64,000 bases of DNA from Candidatus Obscuribacterales bacterium (GTDB taxonomy: Bacteria > Cyanobacteriota > Vampirovibrionia > Obscuribacterales > Obscuribacteraceae): contig JAGVKB010000073.1 in NCBI GenBank assembly GCA_020050835.1, positions 1 through 64,000 of the forward strand. Reading direction: 5' to 3'. A program made the translations under genes and the position numbers. The notes beneath the pieces were generated by a model. That model was not told the origin of the DNA and searched no databases. It was given only the letters and a program-made list of their open reading frames with translations. The stretch's first letter is position 1, and each line of letters begins with the position of its first letter. Below are positions 22,401-55,940 of this stretch, in pieces.

Positions 22401-22526
22401 AAGTAGTACCAGCTAATTCTAAGTTCATGACAGGCGTTTTTCCAGTTGAGCTTCCCTGCCCAAAGAAAAATCTCCCGTCATCTGGTACTGTTAGTGGGTG
22501 TTTCCGGGGCTGGGGAGTGCTCGCTG

Positions 22527-23567
22527 GTGAGCGTTGACGAACTCAAAGAAAAACTTTTGCAAGTCGAAACCGATGCCGTGGCCGAGCTCGAAAGAGCCGA
22601 TACGACGGTAAGGCTCGAAGAGCTGCGCCTGGAATTTCTCGGGCAAAAGGGCACCTTGACTATGGTGCTGCGCGGGCTGGGGATGTTGAGCAAAGAGGAG
22701 CGACCGCCAGTCGGAGAGCTGGCCAACCGCGTCAAGGAGCGAATCGCCTCTGAGATTTCAGCGCGCAAGGAGCACTTCTACAGACTCGAACTGGAAAGAC
22801 GGCTTTCCGGCGAAACGCTTGATGTCACTCTGCCGGGCACCGGCTTGGCGCTCGGGCACCAACATCCGCTTACGCTTGTCACCGAGCGAATCATCGAAAT
22901 TTTCTACGGCATGGGTTTTTCGTTGGCGGTCGGTCCGGAAGTGGAGACGGAGTATTACAACTTCGATGCGCTCAATACGCCCGCTGATCATCCCGCTCGC
23001 GACGAACAAGATACGTTTTATACCGATGCCGGCTCGTCGGTGGTTTTAAGGAGCCAAACATCGACTGTTCAGATTCGGATCATGGAGCAGCAGAAGCCGC
23101 CATTGCGCATTATCTCGCCTGGCCGCGTTTACCGAAATGAAGAGATAAACGCTCGTAAGTATCCGATCTTTCATCAGGTCGAGGGTCTCTTGATCGACCG
23201 CGACGTCACGCTCGGCCAGCTGAAGGGAACTCTCAACGAGTTTATTCGAGTGTTTTTTGGCCGTCCATTGAAGACCAGATTTCGTCCGGACTTCTTCCCG
23301 TTTACCGAGCCGAGCGCCGAGCTTGACAGCCAATGCCCGTTTTGTCTCGGTGATGGCTGCCGGACATGCGGACATAGAGGCTGGCTGGAGCTGCTCGGTT
23401 GCGGCATGGTAGATCCCAATGTCTTGAAAGGGGTGGGAATCGATCCCGACATATGGAGCGGTTTTGCTTTTGGTATGGGGATCGACCGGTTAGCCATGCT
23501 TAAATACGGCGTGAGCGACATCCGTCATTTCTGGAGCTCGGACCTGCGCTTTCTCGAGCAGTTCTGA
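22527..23567 (+). CDS. pheS: Phenylalanyl-tRNA synthetase alpha subunit, GTG start
   Basis: Catalytic class II subunit charging tRNA-Phe. Start at GTG 22527 (SVDELKEKLLQVETD) with GGGGAG nine bases upstream gives 346 residues, the family length; the TTG at 22446 adds 27 unlikely residues. N-terminal coiled coil (about 1-90), class II motif 2 around IFHQVEGLLID, the Cys-rich insert CPFCLGDGCRTCGHRGW, and motif 3 GFAFGMGIDRLAML. Followed 37 bp on by pheT. Confidence 0.96.
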   Translation: MSVDELKEKLLQVETDAVAELERADTTVRLEELRLEFLGQKGTLTMVLRGLGMLSKEERPPVGELANRVKERIASEISARKEHFYRLELERRLSGETLDVTLPGTGLALGHQHPLTLVTERIIEIFYGMGFSLAVGPEVETEYYNFDALNTPADHPARDEQDTFYTDAGSSVVLRSQTSTVQIRIMEQQKPPLRIISPGRVYRNEEINARKYPIFHQVEGLLIDRDVTLGQLKGTLNEFIRVFFGRPLKTRFRPDFFPFTEPSAELDSQCPFCLGDGCRTCGHRGWLELLGCGMVDPNVLKGVGIDPDIWSGFAFGMGIDRLAMLKYGVSDIRHFWSSDLRFLEQF

Positions 23568-23604
23568 GCATTTCCGTTAGCTGCGGCAAGAGGAGCTTTT
23601 CAAA

Positions 23605-26079
23605 GTGCGTCTTTCATTCGATTGGTTGCTGGATTTCGTCGATGTTGCGGATTTGACTCCGGCCGCGGTCGCCGAGAAACTGACGATGGGGGCCTTCGAA
23701 GTCGAAGAGATTCGCAAGGTCAGACCAGAAATCACCGGTCCGGTGGTTGTCGGCGAAATCGTGGAAATCAACCCGCATCCGAATGCAGACAAGATTCGAC
23801 TGACCAGGGTCAGGGTTGATACTACATCCGAACCACTCGAAATAGTCTGCGGGGCAGGCAACATTATCGTCGGGCAGCGTATTCCAGTGGCGTTGCCAGG
23901 CGCCCGCGTGATCAATCGGCACGACGGCAGCGCGCTAAACATCAAGCAGTCCAAAATCCGCGGAGCAGTATCAAACGGTATGCTCTGCTCGCCACCAGAG
24001 CTCGGCATTACCGATGGTGACTCGGAAGGAATATTGATTCTGCCCAACACACCGGCGCTCGGCACGGACATCATCGAGCTTTTAAGGCTTCATCCGGACC
24101 ACGTGTTGCACGTCGGTACCCGCTCGAACCGCGGCGATGCGCTGAGCGTAATCGGCTTGGCGCGCGAAGTCGCCGCCTTGCTAGATCGTCCGATGCGAGA
24201 GCCGAAATGGCAGCTGCCCGAGCCGGATGAAACCAGCGACGCAATCGAGGTTCGCATCAGTGACACTCAGGATTGTCCTTTCTTCAGCCTTCGAGTCCTG
24301 CAAGGCTTGAGCGTCGGACCTTCGCCGTTAAAGATCATACGCAGGCTCGAGGCTATAGGCGTAAGGCCGGTAAATAATGTCGTCGATGTCACTAACTATG
24401 TTCTCCATGAGTTGGGACAGCCGCTGCACGCATATGACTTGGCGAAATTGACAACGCGCGCAGTCGATGTTCGCCGCGCTCGGTCCGGCGAACAGCTCTT
24501 GACGATCGACGGCAAAGAGCGCGAGCTTTCTGAAGCGGTGCTGGTGGTAGCCGACCAGTCAGGGGCGCTGGGCGTAGCCGGCGTAATGGGCGGCAAAGAT
24601 TCAGAGATAACGGAAAAAACCAAGTTCGTCGCCCTCGAGGCGGCTTCCTTCCACCCGGCCAGAGTTCGACGAGCGAGCCGGCTGTTGGGACTAGCGAGCG
24701 ACAGCAGCCAGCGCTTCGAGCGCGGAGTGGACGTCGGCGGTGTTCGTCGGGCTTCAGATCGCGCCGCCGCTCTCCTTTTGGAGTGCTGCGGTGGCTACCT
24801 GGGCCGCATCACCAGCGGTGGCAGCGACAAGGTGAGTCCGGTGCAAGTAGGCTTTAGAGTCGAGCAGCTGAAGCGGCTGACTGAAATTGATCTGCCGGCT
24901 CAGGGAGTGGCCTCTCTGCTCGCCCGCCTGGGGCTGCAATCGCAATTGGTAGGCGAAGCGCTGCTGGACGTTTCAATTCCCAGCTTCCGCCAGAACGATC
25001 TGACCAGAGAGATAGATCTGATTGAAGAAGCTTGCCGGATGTGGGGATACGACCGTATTCCGGCCTCGATGCCCAATTCTACGGCTGCTCCCGATCTGCC
25101 GGACAAAACTGAATCAACCGTGCGGCAAGCGCTCCTTGCCTGTGGTCTGAGCGAGACCTGCACTTCAAGCTTGACCGGAGTGGGCTCTTTCGGTCTTGGC
25201 GGCGAAGCTCTGCAAGCAAGAAATACTGTCCGGGTCCTCAATCCGCTTTCGGAAGACCACCAAGTCTTAAGACGAAGCTTGCTCCCCGGCCTCGTGAAGG
25301 CGGTTGCTTACAATCGCGATCGCGGCGCCGATGATGCCTGGCTGTTCGATGTCGGACACATTTATGAGCGTACCGGTGAAAGCTCGCAACGAGAGACCGG
25401 CGTGCACGAGGACTTGCGAGCTGGCGGCGTGCTGGCCGGAACACGAAAGCTGTCGTGCTGGAACGAAAAGGACAGCAACGAATTGAAATCACAGACAGAT
25501 TCAATGGCGTCTAATTTCTACGTGGCAAAAGGAGTAGTCGAAAACCTGCTCACTCGTTTAAATGTAAACCCAGCCCAGATAAGTTTTCAAAGGATGGCCG
25601 AACCGCCCGAGCATTTCCATCCTGGTCGCTGTTGCGAAATTCGATATCAAGCAGGCCAAGAGTCAGTCGCGCTCGGCACGCTCGGCGAAGTTAATCCGGC
25701 CATCTCAGACAAACTGTCGTTGCGGTCTGCAGTGGCGCTTTTCGAGTTGAGCCTTGGGGCAGTTCGGGCTGCCGGCTCAGCCGCTGTTTTCACAGAGATA
25801 CCCACTACACCATCTGTGGTGCGAGACCTCACTTGCGATCTGCCGCAAGCGGTAGACAACGGTTCAGTGGTGAGCGCTATCGCTCAAGTATCAGGTCCTG
25901 AATTGAGAGAAGTCAATTTAGTAAGCGTCTTTCGCCTCTCGGACGATTTGAAGAGTCACTCTTACCGGCTCACCTTTCAACACGCCGAACAAACCTTGAC
26001 CAATGAACAGGTCGAGCAGCAGCTTGCCAGAGTACGTCAGGCGTTGACCGAGCAACTTTCCGCCGCATTTCGTACTTAA
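23605..26079 (+). CDS. pheT: Phenylalanyl-tRNA synthetase beta subunit, GTG start
   Basis: Partner of PheS for tRNA binding and editing. 824 residues from a GTG with AGGAG upstream: N-terminal EMAP-like tRNA-binding domain (about 40-150, VVVGEIVEINPHPNADKIRL), B3/B4 editing domain (about 210-390), B5 (about 400-475), the catalytic-like core, and the C-terminal FDX-ACB anticodon-binding domain (about 730-824). All parts are intact. Same transcript as pheS. Confidence 0.97.
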   Translation: MRLSFDWLLDFVDVADLTPAAVAEKLTMGAFEVEEIRKVRPEITGPVVVGEIVEINPHPNADKIRLTRVRVDTTSEPLEIVCGAGNIIVGQRIPVALPGARVINRHDGSALNIKQSKIRGAVSNGMLCSPPELGITDGDSEGILILPNTPALGTDIIELLRLHPDHVLHVGTRSNRGDALSVIGLAREVAALLDRPMREPKWQLPEPDETSDAIEVRISDTQDCPFFSLRVLQGLSVGPSPLKIIRRLEAIGVRPVNNVVDVTNYVLHELGQPLHAYDLAKLTTRAVDVRRARSGEQLLTIDGKERELSEAVLVVADQSGALGVAGVMGGKDSEITEKTKFVALEAASFHPARVRRASRLLGLASDSSQRFERGVDVGGVRRASDRAAALLLECCGGYLGRITSGGSDKVSPVQVGFRVEQLKRLTEIDLPAQGVASLLARLGLQSQLVGEALLDVSIPSFRQNDLTREIDLIEEACRMWGYDRIPASMPNSTAAPDLPDKTESTVRQALLACGLSETCTSSLTGVGSFGLGGEALQARNTVRVLNPLSEDHQVLRRSLLPGLVKAVAYNRDRGADDAWLFDVGHIYERTGESSQRETGVHEDLRAGGVLAGTRKLSCWNEKDSNELKSQTDSMASNFYVAKGVVENLLTRLNVNPAQISFQRMAEPPEHFHPGRCCEIRYQAGQESVALGTLGEVNPAISDKLSLRSAVALFELSLGAVRAAGSAAVFTEIPTTPSVVRDLTCDLPQAVDNGSVVSAIAQVSGPELREVNLVSVFRLSDDLKSHSYRLTFQHAEQTLTNEQVEQQLARVRQALTEQLSAAFRT

Positions 26080-26206: not shown

Positions 26207-29200
26207 ATGTACAAATTAGTAACCAATCCCAATCGGATCTTAATCGTCCTGGTGCTGGCGGCCGGACTTGCCGCCGCCTTCTACTTCCCGCAGCAGTACC
26301 CGGAAAGGATTGTCGAGATACCGGTGCTGGCATTATTCGTCGGAGAGCTGGGCCTCGCGCTCTTCTTGAGCTTGCTTTGCTACGAGAATGCCACGCCCCA
26401 GCAGATCCTCAAACTATCCACCGCCATGTTCGGATTGACCATGTTTGTAGGCGCGATCAGCAACTCGGTCGGGCAGTTGACTCAAATGCTTCCGGATTAC
26501 TTTGTTTTAGTGAGCTGGGTGCAGCTGATAATCATGAATACAGCAGGAATCACAAGCACTCTTTGCTTCTACCGCCTTCATCTGCCGGATGAGTCCCAGG
26601 CGCTGCGTTCTCGCTTGGCAGAGCCAATTCAAGTTCAACCGGCGGCTCCACGCTCTGAGGGTCCAAGGTCAGTAACGTCCGACACTTCGGACTCCGGACC
26701 GCTGTCGCACGATTTCACTCCGCCAGAGGTCGCCGCCGGTGAAGCTGCCTCGGCTGAACCGAAGCGTACGCAGTCCGTCAAAGAGATCCTGGAGAGTCTG
26801 GATATATCGCGCATCATGCGGTTGGAAAGATCGATTCACCCGGCCGAACCGCCTTCGCTGGAGACATTATTCAAGGAAGAGAGCAAGGCGGCCGAAGCCA
26901 CCGCCGCGGCTGAGGCACCAGTCGCCGCTCCAAGCAGCAATGCCGTGGTGCTGCCGACCGGCAAGCGACCGCCGGAAGACCAAGCCTTTAACTTTTCGCC
27001 CGAAGAGATAAAGGCAATTGCGATGCGCAACGCCCCGAACGAGAGCGCGATCTTTGCACCGGAGCAAGCGCCATTCGAGCCCGACCTGGGCCTCGACGAA
27101 GATCAACCGATTACCGAACGGCTCGATTTAGATCAGATCCTGGGTATGGAACAGTCGCTGATGCCCGATTCGGCTCCGGACAGCCACGGACTCAGCCGGA
27201 CGCTGACAGAAGTTAGTGCCGGCGGTGAGCCGACAGAGACCGCTTCCGACAGAGCGCCCAAGTCGTCGGAACCAAAGGCAATCGAGCTGCCGGCCGCCCC
27301 CGAGGCTGTCGACCTGGCCACCATTGCGCTCGAGGGCTCCGCCGAGTCAAATGCAAACATTATCGCCCTGGCGGCCGCCCTCGATTTAGCGCCGGCTGCA
27401 ACCACTCAGAAAGCAGTCCCGGAGCCTGAACCGGTAGCCTTGCCAGCCGCCAAGGACGCCGGCAGCGCTCCCATCCCGAAGACTGCGTCAGGCGACGAGC
27501 CGGACCTTGACTTGATACCACTGGCAGCTGGCGAATCCGAAGGAGAAGCGAAAGTGGCGCTTGCCCCCGGCGAGCCGAACGAGCCGGTGATCGCCCTGCC
27601 GGCCGCTGCCAGCTCAACAGCCGAGCCGCAAACTTTGCCTAAATCGTCAGCCAAATCGAAAGCAGAAGACCAACCGCTGGCGCTGCCGGATCAACCGAGT
27701 CAGAGCCAACCAATTGTCGGCTCCGGATTGCCAAGCCTGCAGGAATTACTCAAAACAGAGACGCTGGACGGTCCGCTCGTGCCGTTGGAGGAAGCTCCGG
27801 AAGCTTATCCCCAACCGGTAGCATCGACTGCAAGCACAATTGCCGCCACCGACAATACGGCTTTCGACGAAGCGGCAGTCGCCGAAGACCTGGACAAGGC
27901 CTTCAAGAAGCTGGTTCCGCGCGAAGCGCTCCGGGACGTCTCGACCGAAACGCTGCGGCAATTGCGAGAGTCCAACGCAGCCAGCAAGGCAAGCGACGAT
28001 GATTTCACCGGCGCCAGCTTGAGCGCGCCGGCAGCGAGCGCCGAAATCGCTGATTTGATTAGAAGTCTGGCCGAAGAAGATCTCGCAAGTGAAGCAGACC
28101 AACTTGAAGCAGCCCAACTGCCGCAAACGATGCCTCAAGCGGCGGAGCCAAAAGAAGTAAAGGACTTCGGCCGGCTCTCGGCCAAGGCAAGCGCGAAATC
28201 GCCCGTCGAACAAGACACCGCCGGCAGTATGAAGACGATCGGCAAAATGCTGATCGACACTCAGGCGGTGGAGAACATCATCAAGCAAGGCGAAAAGCGC
28301 AGCGGCGGCATGACTACTGCCAAGATTGTGAGCGCCAAACGCGGCGAAGCGATTAGATCTCTTCTTACATACATCGACAATTATCCAGGAGTGACCGGCA
28401 GCCTGATCGTCGGCAATGATGGTTTGGTGATCTCGTCCACAGTCGATCCAGCGCTCGACAAAGATCTGCTGGGAGCGATGTCTATGGCTATTCACGGCAA
28501 TTCTTCGATTGCGTCCGACAAGCTCTCGCTGGGCGAATTGAAGGAGATAGTTCTATGGTCGCCCGAAAAGCTTACTTTGCTCAAGAAGCTAGATGACGGC
28601 ATCCTGGCCGTTTACTCCGACACGCCGGCAATCTCCAGGCTGGATGGACTATTGAAACTGCTCTCCTCACTGATGCGCGAGACGACCGACAAGGAAACAG
28701 CGGCAGCGTCAACCGGAAAAGACATAGCCGAGCCGGTCAAGGCTCCAGCGCCGGCCGCAGAGAAGCTGGCGGCGGCGGAATCGCCTACCGCCTCTGAGCC
28801 GAAAGCAGCTGGATCGGCAGCGCGTCCATACGTCCAACCGTCGCAGCAACAATCGCCATCCAAGCCAGCCGCGGCCGAAGCTGACGCTGGCTCGGCCGAT
28901 AGTTCGGGCAATCGCATTGCAGTTGCAGCAGATCTGGTGCGAGACTTGATCGCCAGCCTTTCGGTTCAACAACCGGAGCCGGCGCCGGCTAAACCGCCAG
29001 AGTCCGCCACCGCACCAGCTTCGCAAGGCAAGGAAGATGCCGCTGCAGCAACCGCTGCCAACCAGCTCGCTATGACCGAAAAGCCCCCCGCGCTCAAGCT
29101 GGAAGAACCGGCGAAGCCGAGTCCGGTCAGCGCGCCAGCGAACTCGCAGGAGGAAAAGAGCGCCGCTTTGCCAGCCAGCACCAGCACGCCGCCGGCGGCA

Positions 29201-29782
29201 CAGGATGTTTGCGAGGCGGACAGTCCTGCACCACCGGCGACACCATCACAGTCGGTCAAGGAGTTCGGGCGCCTTTCGGCTTCTTCCGGCTCGCACTCGG
29301 TAATCGATGAATCCAGCGGTTCCGGCAGCATGTCAATCGGCAAAATGCTTCTTGACGTCCAGGCGGTATCCAACATCATTAAAGGCGCCGACAAACGCGG
29401 CAACGGATTGACCACGGCCCGCGTGATTAGCGCCGCTCGTGGCGAGGGGATCAGGTCGCTCCTGAGCAAAGTCGATACTTACCCGGGCGTTTCGGGCAGT
29501 TTAATCGTCGGTCACGACGGATTGGTAATCGCTTCTACCTTGAGCTCCGAGTTCGACAAAGACACATTGGGAGCGATGGCAACATCAGTGCACAGCCATA
29601 CGAATGTGACGACTACTAAGCTCGAGCTCGGTCGTTTACATCAAGCCGTTTTGCAGTCGAGTGACAATATTACTGTCCTCACTAATGTGGAAGTCGGAGT
29701 ACTGGCAGTTTTCACAAAGCTTCGCGAGCTGGAGAAATTGGACGGACTGCTGGAAGCAATTGATCAGACGGTGCAAAGTTAA
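26207..29782 (+). CDS. Membrane protein with two roadblock/LC7 domains
   Basis: 1191 residues. Residues 1-130 hold three or four hydrophobic helices. Then comes about 500 residues rich in Ala, Pro and Glu, likely disordered. Residues about 648-824 and 1015-1191 are two copies of one unit: a lead-in VK(D/E)FGRLSA, then (S/T)IGKMLxD.QAV.NIIK, then a roadblock fold (TTAK/RV.SA.RGE.IRSLL, PGV.GSLIVG.DGLVI). A second Ala/Pro linker parts them. Roadblock proteins such as MglB pair up and regulate small GTPases. Two in one chain could pair within the molecule. No MglA-like GTPase is in the window. The role (polarity, motility or surface assembly) is unknown. Confidence 0.85.
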   Translation: MYKLVTNPNRILIVLVLAAGLAAAFYFPQQYPERIVEIPVLALFVGELGLALFLSLLCYENATPQQILKLSTAMFGLTMFVGAISNSVGQLTQMLPDYFVLVSWVQLIIMNTAGITSTLCFYRLHLPDESQALRSRLAEPIQVQPAAPRSEGPRSVTSDTSDSGPLSHDFTPPEVAAGEAASAEPKRTQSVKEILESLDISRIMRLERSIHPAEPPSLETLFKEESKAAEATAAAEAPVAAPSSNAVVLPTGKRPPEDQAFNFSPEEIKAIAMRNAPNESAIFAPEQAPFEPDLGLDEDQPITERLDLDQILGMEQSLMPDSAPDSHGLSRTLTEVSAGGEPTETASDRAPKSSEPKAIELPAAPEAVDLATIALEGSAESNANIIALAAALDLAPAATTQKAVPEPEPVALPAAKDAGSAPIPKTASGDEPDLDLIPLAAGESEGEAKVALAPGEPNEPVIALPAAASSTAEPQTLPKSSAKSKAEDQPLALPDQPSQSQPIVGSGLPSLQELLKTETLDGPLVPLEEAPEAYPQPVASTASTIAATDNTAFDEAAVAEDLDKAFKKLVPREALRDVSTETLRQLRESNAASKASDDDFTGASLSAPAASAEIADLIRSLAEEDLASEADQLEAAQLPQTMPQAAEPKEVKDFGRLSAKASAKSPVEQDTAGSMKTIGKMLIDTQAVENIIKQGEKRSGGMTTAKIVSAKRGEAIRSLLTYIDNYPGVTGSLIVGNDGLVISSTVDPALDKDLLGAMSMAIHGNSSIASDKLSLGELKEIVLWSPEKLTLLKKLDDGILAVYSDTPAISRLDGLLKLLSSLMRETTDKETAAASTGKDIAEPVKAPAPAAEKLAAAESPTASEPKAAGSAARPYVQPSQQQSPSKPAAAEADAGSADSSGNRIAVAADLVRDLIASLSVQQPEPAPAKPPESATAPASQGKEDAAAATAANQLAMTEKPPALKLEEPAKPSPVSAPANSQEEKSAALPASTSTPPAAQDVCEADSPAPPATPSQSVKEFGRLSASSGSHSVIDESSGSGSMSIGKMLLDVQAVSNIIKGADKRGNGLTTARVISAARGEGIRSLLSKVDTYPGVSGSLIVGHDGLVIASTLSSEFDKDTLGAMATSVHSHTNVTTTKLELGRLHQAVLQSSDNITVLTNVEVGVLAVFTKLRELEKLDGLLEAIDQTVQS

Positions 29783-29811: not shown

Positions 29812-29833
29812 GTGAAGCTCATTCTAGCTTCAC
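29812..29833 (+). promoter_or_regulatory. Hairpin just before the peroxiredoxin ribosome site
   Basis: GTGAAGCT and AGCTTCAC form an 8-bp stem with a six-base loop, ending about 10 bases before the AAGGAG of the next gene. It may be a weak end signal for the roadblock gene or a stabilising 5' hairpin. Confidence 0.35.
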
Positions 29834-29853
29834 CGAAGCTAAGGAGCTTAATC

Positions 29854-30324
29854 ATGACTACCCCCAGAGAAGCTGCACTCAAGGTTCCCCAGGCCGGAGA
29901 GGAAGCACCAAAATTCAAGGCCCAGGCCTACCCGTCCGGCGAGCATTCACTCGACGACTTTGCCGGCAAGAAGAACGTGATACTAGCCTTTTATCCCAAG
30001 GACATGACTCCAGGATGCACCAAAGAGATGTGCGACTTTTCCGCCGATCTCGCCAAATTCGATGACGCTCAGACGCAAGTTTTCGGTGTATCTTGCGATA
30101 CGCTCAAGAACCACGAGGAGTTTGCCAAGAAATACAGCCTCACCGTCACCTTGCTGGCCGACGAGGATGCAACTGTCGCCAAGGCATACGGCGCCGTACG
30201 CGAAGGAGCCCGGATGGCCAATCGAGTGCTTTTTGTAATCGATAAGAATGGAGTCGTCCAGCACGTTTTCGAAGGGATGCCAAACAACGCCGAGCTGCTG
30301 GCGGTCGTCGAGCAATTGCCGTAA
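29854..30324 (+). CDS. bcp: Peroxiredoxin, BCP/PrxQ type
   Basis: Thiol peroxidase that reduces hydrogen and organic peroxides with thioredoxin. Start at ATG 29854 (MTTPREAALKVPQAGEEAP), eight bases after AAGGAG; 156 residues. The peroxidatic cysteine lies in DMTPGCTKEMC and the second cysteine is five residues on, the layout of atypical two-Cys BCP enzymes. Conserved YPKD and VLFVIDKNG are also there. Its stop is 10 bp from the stop of the convergent kinase gene. Confidence 0.93.
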   Translation: MTTPREAALKVPQAGEEAPKFKAQAYPSGEHSLDDFAGKKNVILAFYPKDMTPGCTKEMCDFSADLAKFDDAQTQVFGVSCDTLKNHEEFAKKYSLTVTLLADEDATVAKAYGAVREGARMANRVLFVIDKNGVVQHVFEGMPNNAELLAVVEQLP

Positions 30325-30333
30325 GACGATGCG

Positions 30334-31626
30334 TTATTGCTCCGGCCTGTTGGTCAGGACATCTGCGCAGTAGTTGGGCATCGACAAGGTAAAAGTAGAG
30401 CCAGAACCAGCTTCACTCGTACAGGTGAGCTCGGCGCCATGGGCTTCGGCGATCTGGCGGCAGATGTACAGGCCCAGCCCGGAGCTGGCACTGTGCCTGG
30501 TTGCGTCGCCCGCTTGCTCGTGAGCATAAAACCGCTCGAACAGATGCTTCTGTTTCTCTTTTGAGATACCCGGGCCGGTATCGGCTACCTCGACAACCGC
30601 TACACTCCCGCCGCCGATCGAGCTACGCACTGTAATGCTGCCGCCGGCGGGAGTGTAGCGGACGGCATTACCAAGTAAATTTGTGACCAGACGCCTCAAG
30701 GCCAGTCGATCGGCTGTGACCTCTACCTTGTCGGCGTCGCACTCAAGGCAGATTTTCAAGCCGCCGTCGCGGGCCAGCTCTTGCATCTCGTCAATACAGC
30801 TATTGACGATCGCCAATACATCAATCCTTTCGAAAACCAGCTTATAGCCACTTTCAAAACGGTACACATCGACCAGATTGTGAACCATCTCCAACAAAGC
30901 CTTGTTGCTATTTCTCAAGGTTGAGAGCAGTCTCTTCTGCTCATCGAGCAGCTGTCCAGAGCGTCCTTCCAGAAGAACTCGATAGACCATCTCCGCGCCG
31001 ACCAGCGGGCTCTTCAGATCATGCGAGAGTCTGGTCATAAACTCTTCTCGCAATTTGGATGACTCAAGCTGCCGCTCGACTTCCACCAGCTGCTTCTTGA
31101 ACTCGCTTTGCAGACCGCTCATCAGATCATCAAAACTGGCCGCTAGATAGCTGCCCAGTCGCGCGCGGTCTATTTCTAATACTGCTAATCTGCTGAAGGA
31201 AGACAGATCACTTTGCGAGTCGGCCCGCTCCGAAAAATCGGCAAGCACCCGCTGAATTCGGTGAATCAAGCCTGCCGGGTCGACCGGTTTTCGGACAAAA
31301 CTGTCCGCACCACAAACCAATCCATCGACGGTATCTTTGAGTTCAGACAGCTGGGTCACAAGAATTACCGGTATCGACGAGCCACCGCTATGGGACTTTA
31401 TCTTGCGGCAGAGCTCGTAGCCAGACAGTTCAGGCATCACAACATCGGTCAAGACTAGGTCGTACCTGGCAGCACAAAACAGCTCGAAACCTTTAAGCCC
31501 GTCTCCAGCCAGATCTACCTCATAGCCGCTCATCTCCAGGATAGACTTGAGCTGAGCAGCCTGAACCGGACTGTCTTCCACGACTAGCACGCGCGCAATG
31601 CGGCGATTGTTCCCGATTCCTGCCAA
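30334..31626 (-). CDS. Receiver-histidine kinase hybrid
   Basis: Soluble phosphorelay protein with an N-terminal receiver (acceptor D61 in VLTDVVMPE, K113 in RKPVD) followed by a HisKA domain (H202 in SHDLKSP) and an ATPase domain (NLLGNAVRYTP, DTGPGIS, SSGLGLYI). The order receiver first, kinase second, suggests that another kinase controls this one. No transmembrane segment. 430 residues from a TTG start with AGGGA close by; the true start could be a few codons inside. No output regulator is adjacent. Confidence 0.9.
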   Translation of the reverse strand: MAGIGNNRRIARVLVVEDSPVQAAQLKSILEMSGYEVDLAGDGLKGFELFCAARYDLVLTDVVMPELSGYELCRKIKSHSGGSSIPVILVTQLSELKDTVDGLVCGADSFVRKPVDPAGLIHRIQRVLADFSERADSQSDLSSFSRLAVLEIDRARLGSYLAASFDDLMSGLQSEFKKQLVEVERQLESSKLREEFMTRLSHDLKSPLVGAEMVYRVLLEGRSGQLLDEQKRLLSTLRNSNKALLEMVHNLVDVYRFESGYKLVFERIDVLAIVNSCIDEMQELARDGGLKICLECDADKVEVTADRLALRRLVTNLLGNAVRYTPAGGSITVRSSIGGGSVAVVEVADTGPGISKEKQKHLFERFYAHEQAGDATRHSASSGLGLYICRQIAEAHGAELTCTSEAGSGSTFTLSMPNYCADVLTNRPEQ

Positions 31627-32370: not shown

Positions 32371-34371
32371 CTAATCTTTGCTGGCGCCGGCTTTCTGCAA
32401 TGCATCCAAAACGATCGGCGGCGTTATCACTTCGGGTAACACGATCGGCTCGGTCGGACGGCCGGCCGGAAAGATTACGTAGAGCGGTACGCCCGAGCGT
32501 CCGAATTTGTGCAAAAGCGCCGATATCTGCGGATCCTGCCTGGTCCAATCAGCTTTCATGGCCACTACCTTCAAAGCTTTCATTCTCGCCACCACCGGCT
32601 TGGTATCAATCACGGCTTGCTCGTTTACCTTGCAGGTCAGGCACCACTCCGCAGTGAAATCCAGAAAGACCGTCTTACCAAGCGACAGCTGCATTTCCAG
32701 AGCATCAATCGTAAAGGGCTGCCAGTCTATCTCGCCTTTGGTCGGTCGCCTTTCAGAGCTTGAAATCGGCATTTGCGGCGACGGCAACCCCAAGCCAGGA
32801 ACCGTTGCAATACAGAAGTAGTAGCCGACTCCAACCACAACCAGAGCGATTGACCAAACTGTTAACTTACGTCGGCTGGAGCTGGTCAGGTCTGTATACC
32901 GACTGACACACCAGACCGCAAAAGAGATTACTACCAGGAAAGCCGCAATCCACAGCGCCTGCTCAAAGCCAACTTGGGCACCCAAGACTCTGAGCAGCCA
33001 GATGACAGTGGCAAGCAGAAGAAATCCCAGCGACTCTTTAAATTTCTCCATCCAGACTCCCGGTCTGGGTATAAAGCGCATCCAGCCTGGTTTGGCGGTC
33101 AGCACCAGATAAGGAAAGGCCATGCCGAGTCCGACTACCATGAAGATAGTAATCACAACCCACCATGATTCAGTAAATGCGAACCCGACAGCCGTGCCGA
33201 GGAAGGGCGCGGTGCACGGGGTCGACAGCGTCGTCGCCAGCACCCCTTTGAAGAAAGTACCGGCAATTCCTTCCTGGCTGGCAGCCTTGTCGATCGCCGC
33301 CTGCCCGGCCGGGGCAGAGATGTAGAAGAGCCCGAAAAGGCTCAAGGCAAACAGTTGCACAATCACAGCCATCACAATCACAAAGACCGGATGCTGAAAC
33401 TGAAAGCCCCAGCCAACCTGTTGTCCGGTCTGCTTCAGCAATAGCACCAGGATGGCCAGCGCCAGAAAAGAGGCGAGAATGCCGGCAGTGAACACAAGTC
33501 CCAGTCTAAATACTTGTTTGGGGTCCTCACCGGCTTGTTGCACAAAGCCGAGCACCTTGATTGATATGACGGGCAACACACAAGGCATGAAATTGAGAAT
33601 GAATCCACCAACGAAGGCCAGGAGTAGATAGCCGGCCAAACCGTTAGGCTGCTCGGCAGCTCCCTCAACTTTCAACGACTGGGACAGCAAGTTAATCGGC
33701 TTGGTTTGTCCGGACGTGGCCGCTTCGCTCTTCGATATGGCTGCCGGCTCGCCTGCCGGTGCCGCTCCGATCTCACCGCTATAGCCGACTTTGGCGAATT
33801 CATCTAGATGGTCGGCCGCGTAGGCGCTCGAACCTGATGCCGTAAGCTCGAGCGTAAGATCAGCCTTGCCAGGTACACACAGGTCTTTGCATTGCAACCA
33901 CTTAACAGCTGCGCCAAAAGAGAGTGGCTTGCCGGCAGGCAAGCGCTCCGGTGGAGTAATGCTGGCAGCAATTAACGTTTTGTCGTGATATCCGTAAGTG
34001 GTGATACCAGCATCGTTAAACGTATTCGGTCTTTCCCATTCGAGCGGGCCGGCCTTGAATCCCTCCGGCAGCCGCCAGACAATCTTAGTCGGCATACCGG
34101 CATCACCGCTTAGCTTGTAGTAAGTGTGCCAGTCCGGCGGCATGAGCAGCTCGACCCCCAGTTTAAACGGCTGACCGGCAGGGACGGACTTAACGTTGGC
34201 CAGCAGCTTAGCAGTTACCGGCGGCACCGCCTGCGAGTCTGTCTGGGTCGATGCCGGAGACGCCTCAGCCAAAGGCGCAAAGCTCAGAACAAAGGATAAT
34301 AAGACTCCTAAAAGGAGAGCAAACAGCGAAGCGCTCGGCAAGGTCGATCGCACTGAGTGAATTGAAAGCAT
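32371..34371 (-). CDS. dsbD: Protein-disulfide reductase DsbD-like
   Basis: Moves electrons from cytoplasmic thioredoxin to periplasmic thiols. Start at 34371 (MLSIHSVRS, GAGG seven bases upstream) gives 666 residues: signal peptide ending AEA, an N-terminal DsbD-alpha-like domain (about 30-190) with the CKDLC cysteine pair, eight or so transmembrane helices with the paired cysteines in NFMPCVLP and STPCTAPF, and a C-terminal thioredoxin domain with WCLTC near residue 575. All three redox centres are visible. The longer frame to 34449 overlaps the GH1 gene and is rejected. Confidence 0.92.
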   Translation of the reverse strand: MLSIHSVRSTLPSASLFALLLGVLLSFVLSFAPLAEASPASTQTDSQAVPPVTAKLLANVKSVPAGQPFKLGVELLMPPDWHTYYKLSGDAGMPTKIVWRLPEGFKAGPLEWERPNTFNDAGITTYGYHDKTLIAASITPPERLPAGKPLSFGAAVKWLQCKDLCVPGKADLTLELTASGSSAYAADHLDEFAKVGYSGEIGAAPAGEPAAISKSEAATSGQTKPINLLSQSLKVEGAAEQPNGLAGYLLLAFVGGFILNFMPCVLPVISIKVLGFVQQAGEDPKQVFRLGLVFTAGILASFLALAILVLLLKQTGQQVGWGFQFQHPVFVIVMAVIVQLFALSLFGLFYISAPAGQAAIDKAASQEGIAGTFFKGVLATTLSTPCTAPFLGTAVGFAFTESWWVVITIFMVVGLGMAFPYLVLTAKPGWMRFIPRPGVWMEKFKESLGFLLLATVIWLLRVLGAQVGFEQALWIAAFLVVISFAVWCVSRYTDLTSSSRRKLTVWSIALVVVGVGYYFCIATVPGLGLPSPQMPISSSERRPTKGEIDWQPFTIDALEMQLSLGKTVFLDFTAEWCLTCKVNEQAVIDTKPVVARMKALKVVAMKADWTRQDPQISALLHKFGRSGVPLYVIFPAGRPTEPIVLPEVITPPIVLDALQKAGASKD

Positions 34372-34402
34372 AGCCAGCCTCGTAGTCGAGCTGCCAAATT
34401 GA

Positions 34403-35803
34403 TTATAAAAGGTTCGCACCAATGCCTCCACGCGCCACGATTTCAGCATAAACGCCGGCGCTCTTTCTCAGCGTCCGCTTCTGGCTGGGATAAGCCACTC
34501 TTACCAGACCGAAACGGGGCTTCAAACCGTCCGACCATTCGAAATTATCCAGGAGCGACCAGTGAAGGTAGCCCCTGATATTCTCCCCTTTACCGATTGC
34601 CTTCTGCAATGCCACCAAATGTGATACTAAATACCTCACCCTCTGTTCATCGCTCAGCGACCAGTCGCCTTCATTCAAATCGGACGAAAACGCATCAGCC
34701 ATGCCATTTTCAGTAATGAAAATTTCCCGCCGTTGGCCATTGCTGTCGTAACGGTAGGCAGCGATATCTTCACTCAACATGTAGTAAAGACCTTCCGGAA
34801 AGATCTCCCAGCCCATACCGGTGGTGGCAAGCCTGGTCACTGCTGATTGAATGCCAAACACATCGGGCGGCCAGGAATACCGAAACTCACAGATTTCGCG
34901 CGTGAAGTAATTGAAGGCCAAAAAATCGATTGCGCCCTTGAGGTTCGGAATCGGCCCGCTAATTTTCTTGATCTCTCTTTCGGTGCTGATCGGATAAGGA
35001 AACTGCAGATCGCCTGTTTCAACCGCAGTCGGAAAGATGTGGTTAAACACTTGATCCCGAAAGTAACGGACAACCTGATCGAGCGGATTGAGTCCGTTGC
35101 GCGCTACAAACGGTCGCCAGTGGACAACGTAGCTGACTTTCGCGCTCGGATGCTCATCATGAATCGCCCGGTAAGCCGCGACATGCCCCTCCAGCAGCCG
35201 TCGAATTGTTTTGAAGGCCAGCAGATAGTTTCGTCTAAACCCGGGCGGCCAGATGCCGTTGACATATCCCTGGTAAACATAGACCAGAGGCTCATTCAAT
35301 GTGAGCCAATAATCGACGAGATCGCCGAATTCACGAGCAGCAGCCCGGGCATACTGCGAGAATTCAGAGACACTGAGCGGATTGTTCCAACCACCGACTT
35401 CGGCCAACCAGGATGGCAGGCAAAAATGAAAGAGAGTAACAAAGGTTTTCATGCCGCGAGCCTTGATGTCCGTCAACAACTGGCGATAGTGAGCTACCGC
35501 CTCCGGCTGAAGCGCGAACGGTTCGGTGCGTACCGGTCTGAGCACCGGCCAGTTTAGGCTCAATCTGAAGCAATTGACATTTAGTTGCTGGCAGAGATCG
35601 AGATCTTCTTTGTACCGTTTGTAAAACTCGCAAGCGACGTCGGCATTAGTGCCGTCGCGAATCTTGCCGTTCTTGACGGTCCAATCCGACCAATCCGAAA
35701 GCCTGCCTTGCGCTTCGCAAGGGTGTCCCTCGACTTGGAAGGCGGAGGTTGAGACACCCCATAAGAAGCCTGCGGGAAACTGGAGAATCTTGTGATCGAA
35801 AAT
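34403..35803 (-). CDS. GH1 family beta-glucosidase with a non-standard (ATT) start
   Basis: Retaining glycosidase, cytoplasmic, 466 residues if begun at ATT 35803. The acid/base is in LTLNEP near residue 170 and the nucleophile in ITENG near 360. The essential N-terminal GH1 stretch FPAGFLWGVSTSAFQVEG is in frame, yet between the TGA upstream (35816-35818) and TTG 35563 there is no ATG, GTG or TTG. ATT 35803, with AAAGGAAG about 10 bases before, or ATT 35788, directly before LQFPAGF, are the only sensible starts. Beginning at 35563 would delete the first barrel strand. A start-codon mutation or sequence error is the other explanation. It ends 31 bp before dsbD. Confidence 0.85.
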   Translation of the reverse strand: MFDHKILQFPAGFLWGVSTSAFQVEGHPCEAQGRLSDWSDWTVKNGKIRDGTNADVACEFYKRYKEDLDLCQQLNVNCFRLSLNWPVLRPVRTEPFALQPEAVAHYRQLLTDIKARGMKTFVTLFHFCLPSWLAEVGGWNNPLSVSEFSQYARAAAREFGDLVDYWLTLNEPLVYVYQGYVNGIWPPGFRRNYLLAFKTIRRLLEGHVAAYRAIHDEHPSAKVSYVVHWRPFVARNGLNPLDQVVRYFRDQVFNHIFPTAVETGDLQFPYPISTEREIKKISGPIPNLKGAIDFLAFNYFTREICEFRYSWPPDVFGIQSAVTRLATTGMGWEIFPEGLYYMLSEDIAAYRYDSNGQRREIFITENGMADAFSSDLNEGDWSLSDEQRVRYLVSHLVALQKAIGKGENIRGYLHWSLLDNFEWSDGLKPRFGLVRVAYPSQKRTLRKSAGVYAEIVARGGIGANLL

Positions 35804-54605: not shown

Positions 54606-55940
54606 ATGGCAGACATACTCTATCTAGATGATGATGAAGAGCTGGCAGAGGCGGTCAAGCTCGTTCTGGTCAATGATGGACATAAAGTAAGTACAGTCAA
54701 CTCCGGGCCTACCGGTTGGACACATATTAAGTCCCAACCGTTTGACGTTGTAATTCTCGACTGGGAGATGCCTGACCTCAACGGCATCGACATTCTGAAG
54801 CTAATGCGGACTTCCGGAGACAGCACGCCGGTGATCATGATGACTTCTCGCAGTTCAACTGAGGACAAGGTTCTTGGTCTCGACTGCGGCGCCAATGACT
54901 ATCTGACCAAGCCATTTGTTCCGCAGGAATTGTGTGCTCGTGTGCGAGCCGCGCTGAGGTCAAAGGCCTCACCTGCACCAGCGCCTAAAGCTCTCGGCTC
55001 AAACAACGTGGCTGTGTTGAACCGAGCCAAGCTTGCCGGAACCGCCGTTGCTGCACACCTCGAATTCGTCGAGCTAATCGGTGAAGGTGGGTTTGCCTTG
55101 GTCTTCAAGGCCAGGCACCCGCAATTGGAGAAGTTTGTAGCGGTTAAAATGCTGTTGCCATCTGAGCTATCGGCTGACATGGTTTCCCGATTCGTGCGCG
55201 AAGCCAGAATAGTAAGCAACCTTGACCATCCGAACATTGTAGCCGTCCATGACTTCGGCATCACGGAGAATAAGCAGCCCTATATGGTAATGGAGCTGGT
55301 GGAAGGTCCAAGCCTGTACAAAGTGATCCAGGATAAGGACTTTCTTTCACTCAAGGAAGGATTGACTATTTTGCTGCCTGTTGCATCTGCTCTTTGTTAT
55401 GCGCACGACCAGGGGATATTGCACCGCGATATCAAACCCGAGAACATCGTACTAAAAGAAGGTCCCGACGAGGGTGTTGTCCCCAAAGTCCTGGACTTTG
55501 GACTGGCCAAGGTTATCGAGCTGGATCTGAATTCAAGCAAAGAAGCGCGACTGACACAGGGGCAGCAAATGCTTGGCAGTCCGCCATACATGAGCCCAGA
55601 ACAAGTCCGCGGAAAACCGCTGGACGAAAGGTCCGACATTTACTCGTTCGGCTGCCTTGTCTTTGAAGTATTCACCGGTTTCACGCCTTTCGTAGGCGAT
55701 ACACCGATGGAGATTACTCTGAAGCACTTGGAAGAAGCTCCACTTTCGTTCAAGGAGGCTCAACCGACAGTGAAGTATCCAGCCGAGCTTGAGCAGCTGG
55801 TTGCCAGAGCGCTGCAAAAAGACCCGGTAAAGCGATATCAAACGATGCACGAATTGTGTGACGAACTAGGCAAGCTGCTTGCTAAATCGAGCGACAATTC
55901 GATCTGGGGCAAGTTGCGCAAGATCAAGATTTTCGGTTAG
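54606..55940 (+). CDS. Response-regulator receiver fused to a Ser/Thr kinase
   Basis: 444 residues. Residues 1-120 are a CheY-like receiver with acceptor D52 (VVILDWEMPD), the acidic pocket DDD at 8-10 and K103 (TKPF). After a short Ala/Pro linker the kinase domain runs from about 150 to 425: GEGGFALVFKA, AVKMLLP, HRDIKPEN, DFGLAK and SPEQ are present, so it should be active. It ends without a membrane segment, so it is cytosolic. Histidine-kinase phosphorylation of the receiver presumably switches Ser/Thr phosphorylation. Candidate upstream kinases nearby are at 49.6 kb and 30.3 kb. Confidence 0.92.
   Translation: MADILYLDDDEELAEAVKLVLVNDGHKVSTVNSGPTGWTHIKSQPFDVVILDWEMPDLNGIDILKLMRTSGDSTPVIMMTSRSSTEDKVLGLDCGANDYLTKPFVPQELCARVRAALRSKASPAPAPKALGSNNVAVLNRAKLAGTAVAAHLEFVELIGEGGFALVFKARHPQLEKFVAVKMLLPSELSADMVSRFVREARIVSNLDHPNIVAVHDFGITENKQPYMVMELVEGPSLYKVIQDKDFLSLKEGLTILLPVASALCYAHDQGILHRDIKPENIVLKEGPDEGVVPKVLDFGLAKVIELDLNSSKEARLTQGQQMLGSPPYMSPEQVRGKPLDERSDIYSFGCLVFEVFTGFTPFVGDTPMEITLKHLEEAPLSFKEAQPTVKYPAELEQLVARALQKDPVKRYQTMHELCDELGKLLAKSSDNSIWGKLRKIKIFG

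Follow-up and report, generated by a model that had tools for sequence, protein, structure and literature searches.

A membrane-anchored protein with two lead-in and roadblock/LC7 units in Obscuribacterales, a putative regulator of MglA

The known bacterial regulators of the Ras-like GTPase MglA, MglB among them, are small and soluble and depend on others to bring them to a cell pole. MglB, the GAP/GEF of MglA in Myxococcus xanthus and Thermus thermophilus, is a short homodimer with the roadblock/LC7 fold that is usually encoded beside mglA; mglA lies within a few genes for just over half of MglB homologues (PMC4316618). Its two protomers bind one MglA asymmetrically and have separate GAP and GEF roles, and its C-terminal helix beyond the roadblock core acts as a GEF (PMC11016934). 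In Ragulator/LAMTOR, a membrane-anchored scaffold of the Rag GTPases (PMC5680233), p18 holds several individual chains together. Asgard roadblock proteins (9jue, 7yh1, and 7f8m) are stand-alone single domains. We analyzed a stretch of 64,000 nucleotides (the window) from a Candidatus Obscuribacterales bacterium (Melainabacteria/Vampirovibrionia), in which anchor and roadblock units lie in one bacterial chain. Obscuribacterales are large-genome relatives of cyanobacteria.

The window protein has 1,191 residues and starts with ATG (Table 1). The Pfam model Robl_LC7 (PF03259; curated cut-off, 23 bits) matched it twice, with a whole-protein E-value of 1.2e-19. Scored singly, unit 1 (residues 648 to 824) reached 35.2 bits and unit 2 (residues 1015 to 1191) reached 44.1 bits. 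An ungapped alignment of 169 residues gives 49% identity and 73% similarity between the two units (E = 4e-62). By profile match and predicted fold, the protein is thus a Roadblock/LC7 member, and the description in an earlier note of two duplicate roadblock units in one chain of this length was borne out.

Table 1. Features of the roadblock gene and its conserved neighbors (positions in the window)
Feature	Position	Strand	Basis or remark
pheS (22446-23567) and pheT (23605-26079), upstream conserved neighbors	22446-26079	+	Beside nearly every orthologue within contig reach
Whole gene	26207-29782	+	Membrane-anchored 1,191-residue protein with two lead-in and roadblock units
N-terminal anchor, residues 1-125, probably four helices	26207-26581	+	Hydropathy, orthologue alignment
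Short helical linker element, residues 191-226, KEILESLDISRIMRLERSIHP..SLETLFKEE	26777-26884	+	Listed orthologue sequences
Degenerate linker-repeat copy, residues 552-578, AFDEAAVAEDLDKAFKKLVPREALRDV	27860-27943	+	Profile A7
Lead-in of unit 1 (KEVKDFGRLSA...IGKMLIDTQAVENIIK...)	28148-28369	+	
Roadblock/LC7 domain 1 and last helix (to residue 824)	28367-28678	+	PF03259 at 28367-28615; AlphaFold2 fold, pLDDT ~83-95
Inter-unit low-complexity linker, ~190 residues, one weak helix VAADLVRDLIASL	28679-29248	+	AlphaFold2, alignment
Lead-in of unit 2 (QSVKEFGRLSA...IGKMLLDVQAVSNIIK...)	29249-29470	+	AlphaFold2 pLDDT only 36-57
Roadblock/LC7 domain 2, C-terminal end of protein	29459-29779	+	PF03259 at 29459-29710, 45.3 bits; AlphaFold2 and Foldseek
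bcp (AhpC/TSA peroxiredoxin), downstream conserved neighbor	29812-30324	+	
dsbD-like gene, after bcp	32371-34449	-	

AlphaFold2 predicted the roadblock core as helix-bb-helix-bbb-helix with a pLDDT of about 77 to 95; the overall pTM of the two-unit chain model was 0.36. The best Foldseek matches of the unit (E 6e-9) were the Asgard roadblock protein 9jue (TM 0.87 by target), Ragulator p14/MP1 (1veu, 5y39, and 6ehr), and MglB (6hjm, 6izw, 3t12, and 1j3w), including MglB in MglA complexes. In a sequence-profile search of the units against solved chains, Asgard roadblock proteins were again the closest, MglC was marginal, and MglB was absent among the matches. In the AlphaFold2 model the last roadblock helix ends the protein, and no MglB-type extra helix follows the core. 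The window protein shares with MglB the fold and the presence of a canonical MglA in the same genome. However, it is not MglB proper, from which it departs in length, in gene position, and in lacking the extra C-terminal helix. MglB is a short stand-alone roadblock protein, whereas here the units end a membrane protein of 1,191 residues with an anchor; its gene lies by pheT on contig C97, whereas mglA is on contig C109. The units also carry a conserved lead-in that is lacking in MglB, and this lead-in, the anchor, and the repeats are likewise lacking in the Asgard proteins.

The hydrophobicity of the N terminus fits four helices at about residues 8 to 26, 40 to 58, 70 to 89, and 100 to 121, whereas a plain hydropathy cut on the window protein itself gave only two segments. 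The four-helix reading follows from the orthologues, as most of about 30 have two to four hydrophobic segments near residues 10 to 28, 40 to 58, 70 to 88, and 102 to 122. Hydrophobic N-terminal helices are coupled to roadblock domains in the window protein and orthologues alike, and residues 1 to 125 matched no Pfam family. An even helix count, with basic residues ahead of the first helix and behind the fourth, would place the C-terminal part in the cytoplasm, so that this part and the N terminus are probably both cytoplasmic. At one locus (L120, 5603-6052), a 150-residue open reading frame resembling only the anchor lies directly upstream of a full-length orthologue, possibly as a duplicate of the anchor in a separate gene. 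At another (L125, 151-2742), the orthologue is divided into two reading frames, one for the anchor and one for the linker and roadblock domain; masked bases lie where the two meet, and this may be either a true split or an effect of assembly.

Between anchor and units lie long linkers that are rich in Ala, Pro, and Glu, as previously described. The linker between the units is predicted with low confidence (pLDDT mostly <50), and its one helix falls at model residues 269 to 280. The element KEILESLDISRIMRLERSIHP..SLETLFKEE recurs in two-unit orthologues and may be a functional motif. A second element, LF..GVDsDIDDIFsnLAPAEAQREV, occurs in two to six spaced copies in the linkers of most orthologues, with the variant VSDNEMSDLFDNLL between the units. 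A regular expression for it gave 89 matches in orthologue linkers versus 0.3 in shuffled linkers; the expression was drawn up after the sequences had been viewed, and the figures therefore document repetition but do not amount to an unbiased test. A single degenerate copy is present in the window protein; it was missed by the regular expression and by the first profile and was found by profile A7, in a partly circular way since A7 contains it. Across the genome, the repeat profile gave good E-values only for the window protein and a paralogue on contig C145, partly by construction. The repeat may resemble the CheY-docking peptides of FliM and CheZ, a likeness on which no claim is based.

The lead-in described earlier, VK(D/E)FGRLSA...IGKML.D.QAV.NIIK, is real and near-invariant across 46 related units. 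The mean top-residue frequency was 0.94 for KEFGRLS and 0.81 for the lead-in helix versus 0.68 for the roadblock core, and the lead-in is thus more conserved than the domain that it precedes. Its pLDDT was 36 to 57 in the single unit and at most about 70 in the tandem. This low confidence suggests a segment that may fold upon binding a partner. No Pfam family matched the lead-in. A likeness by eye to the c-di-GMP-binding MshEN/T2SSE_N domain was discarded, as there was no Pfam match even at E = 10. Within the host genome, the lead-in occurs only in the two units and in the C145 paralogue.

A scan of contigs with the whole protein as the query gave no matches, whereas a scan of GTDB genomes with the unit alignment gave 38 loci. 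Their titles are mostly Candidatus Obscuribacterales, Melainabacteria, or Cyanobacteria, with a few generic names and one Proteobacteria. The orthologue at the latter locus (L111, JAJPJO010000204.1) groups with the Obscuribacterales set, and the title is probably wrong. No viral relatives of the protein were found. The order obg-pheS-pheT-roadblock gene-bcp-dsbD-like gene is kept where contigs reach, with a few loci lacking bcp. A possible partner, the response regulator-kinase gene at 30334-31626, was rejected because it was not seen beside any orthologue. The product of another gene of the window (54606-55940, plus strand) joins a response-regulator receiver domain at its N terminus to a Ser/Thr protein kinase domain. 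Promoter and terminator signals did not exceed chance.

Two units are present in about 10 of the roughly 31 scorable genes (the window, L051 to L056, L061, L062, and one gene divided between contigs L060 and L083), and the others have the C-terminal unit only, although degenerate second units may fall below the BLAST threshold. Since most scorable orthologues are single-unit proteins, the tandem is a lineage-specific duplication, and the suggestion that both halves of a dimer are joined in one chain fails as a general design; the ancestral mode of dimerization is presumably in trans. The two-unit proteins fall into two groups of the unit tree, one with the window protein, G017, and G018 and the other with G016, G026, G019, G015, G034, G006, and G011. 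The first group lacks support as a clade, and the first units of the second stand on long branches. The tree is therefore compatible with either one duplication or several.

PF03259 also matched two further proteins of the host genome, a 124-residue stand-alone roadblock protein on contig C109 (L006; P0003) and the C terminus of the C145 paralogue (G000; L005 6720-9182), a long Pro/Ala-rich protein whose 5' end is cut by the contig. The latter ends in a lead-in and a roadblock domain, and its linker carries several copies each of RWDVPIQER and LF.LDD.AMD.LF..NLG. Next to its gene lie pepA and a DUF4388 (PATAN) gene, and another family (L088) shows this arrangement too. In a sample of 386 genomes of the phylum, the lead-in profile detected 11 further genomes from five other families. 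Proteins from 9 of these 11 end in lead-in and roadblock, and all three of the nine that were checked in Pfam scored over the PF03259 cut-off. One to seven LFD.GGLDSALDDLF-type repeats are present in eight of the nine. By eye, three of these proteins (L135, L142, and L143) have a single hydrophobic N-terminal segment, and three others (L137, L138, and L140) have a lysine-rich N terminus. Roadblock proteins of other families of the phylum share much of the anchor-linker-lead-in plan. The C145 paralogue and the relatives L135 to L143 have in common with the window protein the C-terminal lead-in and roadblock domain and the long low-complexity linker, with LF..LDS.LDDLF repeats in most. Unlike the tandem protein, they carry a single unit; the sequenced part of the paralogue has no membrane segment, and in some far relatives a single membrane helix or a basic N terminus takes the place of the anchor.

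An MglA-like GTPase, for which a genome search had been proposed earlier, was found: the host has one canonical MglA (P0002; E = 1.2e-78 to Myxococcus xanthus MglA, 6hjh). Among the 60 genomes nearest to the host, every member of its family and order had the roadblock protein or a paralogue, and none of the 21 from other families of the class did. MglA was present in 37 of the 39 genomes with the protein or paralogue and in none of the 21 others; the two exceptions are only 65 to 66% complete. In the phylum sample, MglA occurred in 18 genomes and the lead-in in 12, all 12 of which have MglA, while 6 of 386 have MglA without a detected lead-in protein and 368 have neither (Fisher p ~1e-18, uncorrected for kinship, which confounds it). 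Six families of the sample have the lead-in, and two more have MglA only.

On balance, we consider it rather likely that the window protein is a membrane-anchored scaffold or regulator of MglA. Such a platform is the best reading because of the roadblock units, the canonical MglA, and the occurrence of lead-in proteins only in genomes with MglA. It is also favored by the Foldseek matches to MglB in MglA complexes, by the DUF4388 neighbors (mglA has a cNMP-DUF4388 gene at a distance of about 3 kb, and PATAN genes have been reported near mglA/mglB [PMC4316618]), and by the PilT-family ATPases, with four matches over the cut-off in the genome; in M. xanthus, type IV pili are under the control of MglA (PMC11580455 and PMC7519303). 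Against it, the units match Asgard roadblock proteins and not MglB by sequence, the MglB-type C-terminal helix is lacking, six MglA genomes have no detected lead-in protein, and mglA on another contig leaves no operon link. The interpretation in the earlier note, a possible membrane platform for a small GTPase in polarity or motility, is thus partly supported, by the fold, MglA, the pilT-type ATPases, and the co-occurrence; a dimer within one chain is not the general design of the family.

A less likely alternative is that the units bind other roadblock proteins of the cell, the 124-residue protein or the lead-in paralogue, and never each other, with MglA involved at most indirectly. Three kinds of roadblock protein are present in the host genome and recur in many family members, and most orthologues are single-unit, which makes a second chain necessary for pairing. 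Different roadblock chains are paired in Ragulator (PMC5680233), and MglC is a paralogue of MglB (PMC7949163). By itself, however, such pairing leaves the restriction of the lead-in family to MglA genomes unexplained. We regard it as improbable that the target of the units is an NTPase other than MglA, such as PilB/PilT of the type IV pilus or a ParA-like ATPase. Regulation of NTPases is a broad role of roadblock proteins (PMC4316618, after Koonin and Aravind), and the genome encodes several PilT-family ATPases. Nevertheless, the lead-in family tracks MglA, whereas pilus ATPases are generally common across the phylum. A purely structural role in the membrane, with no part in GTPase control and with roadblock units serving solely for dimerization, would suit the long low-complexity tether and the housekeeping-gene surroundings but is very unlikely, since the near-invariant lead-in and the MglA co-occurrence imply specific partners.

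If the protein does regulate MglA, its N-terminal helices would hold it in the inner membrane, and the long flexible cytoplasmic tether, which in relatives bears several spaced helices with a possible docking role, would give the roadblock units reach. The units would bind MglA in the manner of an MglB dimer, paired in cis here and presumably in trans in single-unit orthologues. Once bound, they may set the place or duration of GTP-bound MglA through a GAP or GEF effect. The lead-in would serve for binding and take up its fold on the partner, for which MglA itself and type IV pilus or PATAN proteins are candidates, and the protein may have a role in type IV pilus polarity. Given the asymmetric roles of the MglB protomers, the duplicated unit could specialize. 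In its working, the plan is most like that of Ragulator, as an anchor, tether, and roadblock domains putatively serve a small GTPase; this is a likeness of function and not membership.

More tentatively, and with odds somewhat short of even, the family may be an old class of membrane-tethered MglA regulators in non-photosynthetic Cyanobacteriota. Its members would combine an anchor, LF..LDsDLDDLF docking helices, a GTPase-engaging lead-in that is more conserved than the roadblock domain, and a roadblock unit whose duplication in some lineages puts both protomers of an asymmetric MglB-like dimer in one chain. This would in effect be a one-chain bacterial Ragulator. A regulator that is built into the membrane and carries a tether of its own would represent another means of positioning a Ras-like GTPase, one that resembles the eukaryotic anchoring of Rag GTPases. 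The two-unit proteins would also allow each protomer to be mutated separately without engineering, which matters as MglB protomers differ in their GAP/GEF roles (PMC11016934). The family, found in non-photosynthetic relatives of cyanobacteria, is apparently undescribed: no paper in the freely accessible literature searched linked Obscuribacter with roadblock or Sericytochromatia with MglA or gave the architecture, a result that is weak evidence for subscription journals. As the family is near-universal in Obscuribacterales and has relatives in other families, it may bear on the evolution of the MglA system there.

MglA is 93 to 98% identical in nearly all members of the host's family, as would be expected of a hub, and this too speaks for the reading of the window protein as an MglA regulator or scaffold. 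Many relatives of the host have a second MglA copy that is about 60 to 78% identical to the first, and one genome (G033) gave five matches.
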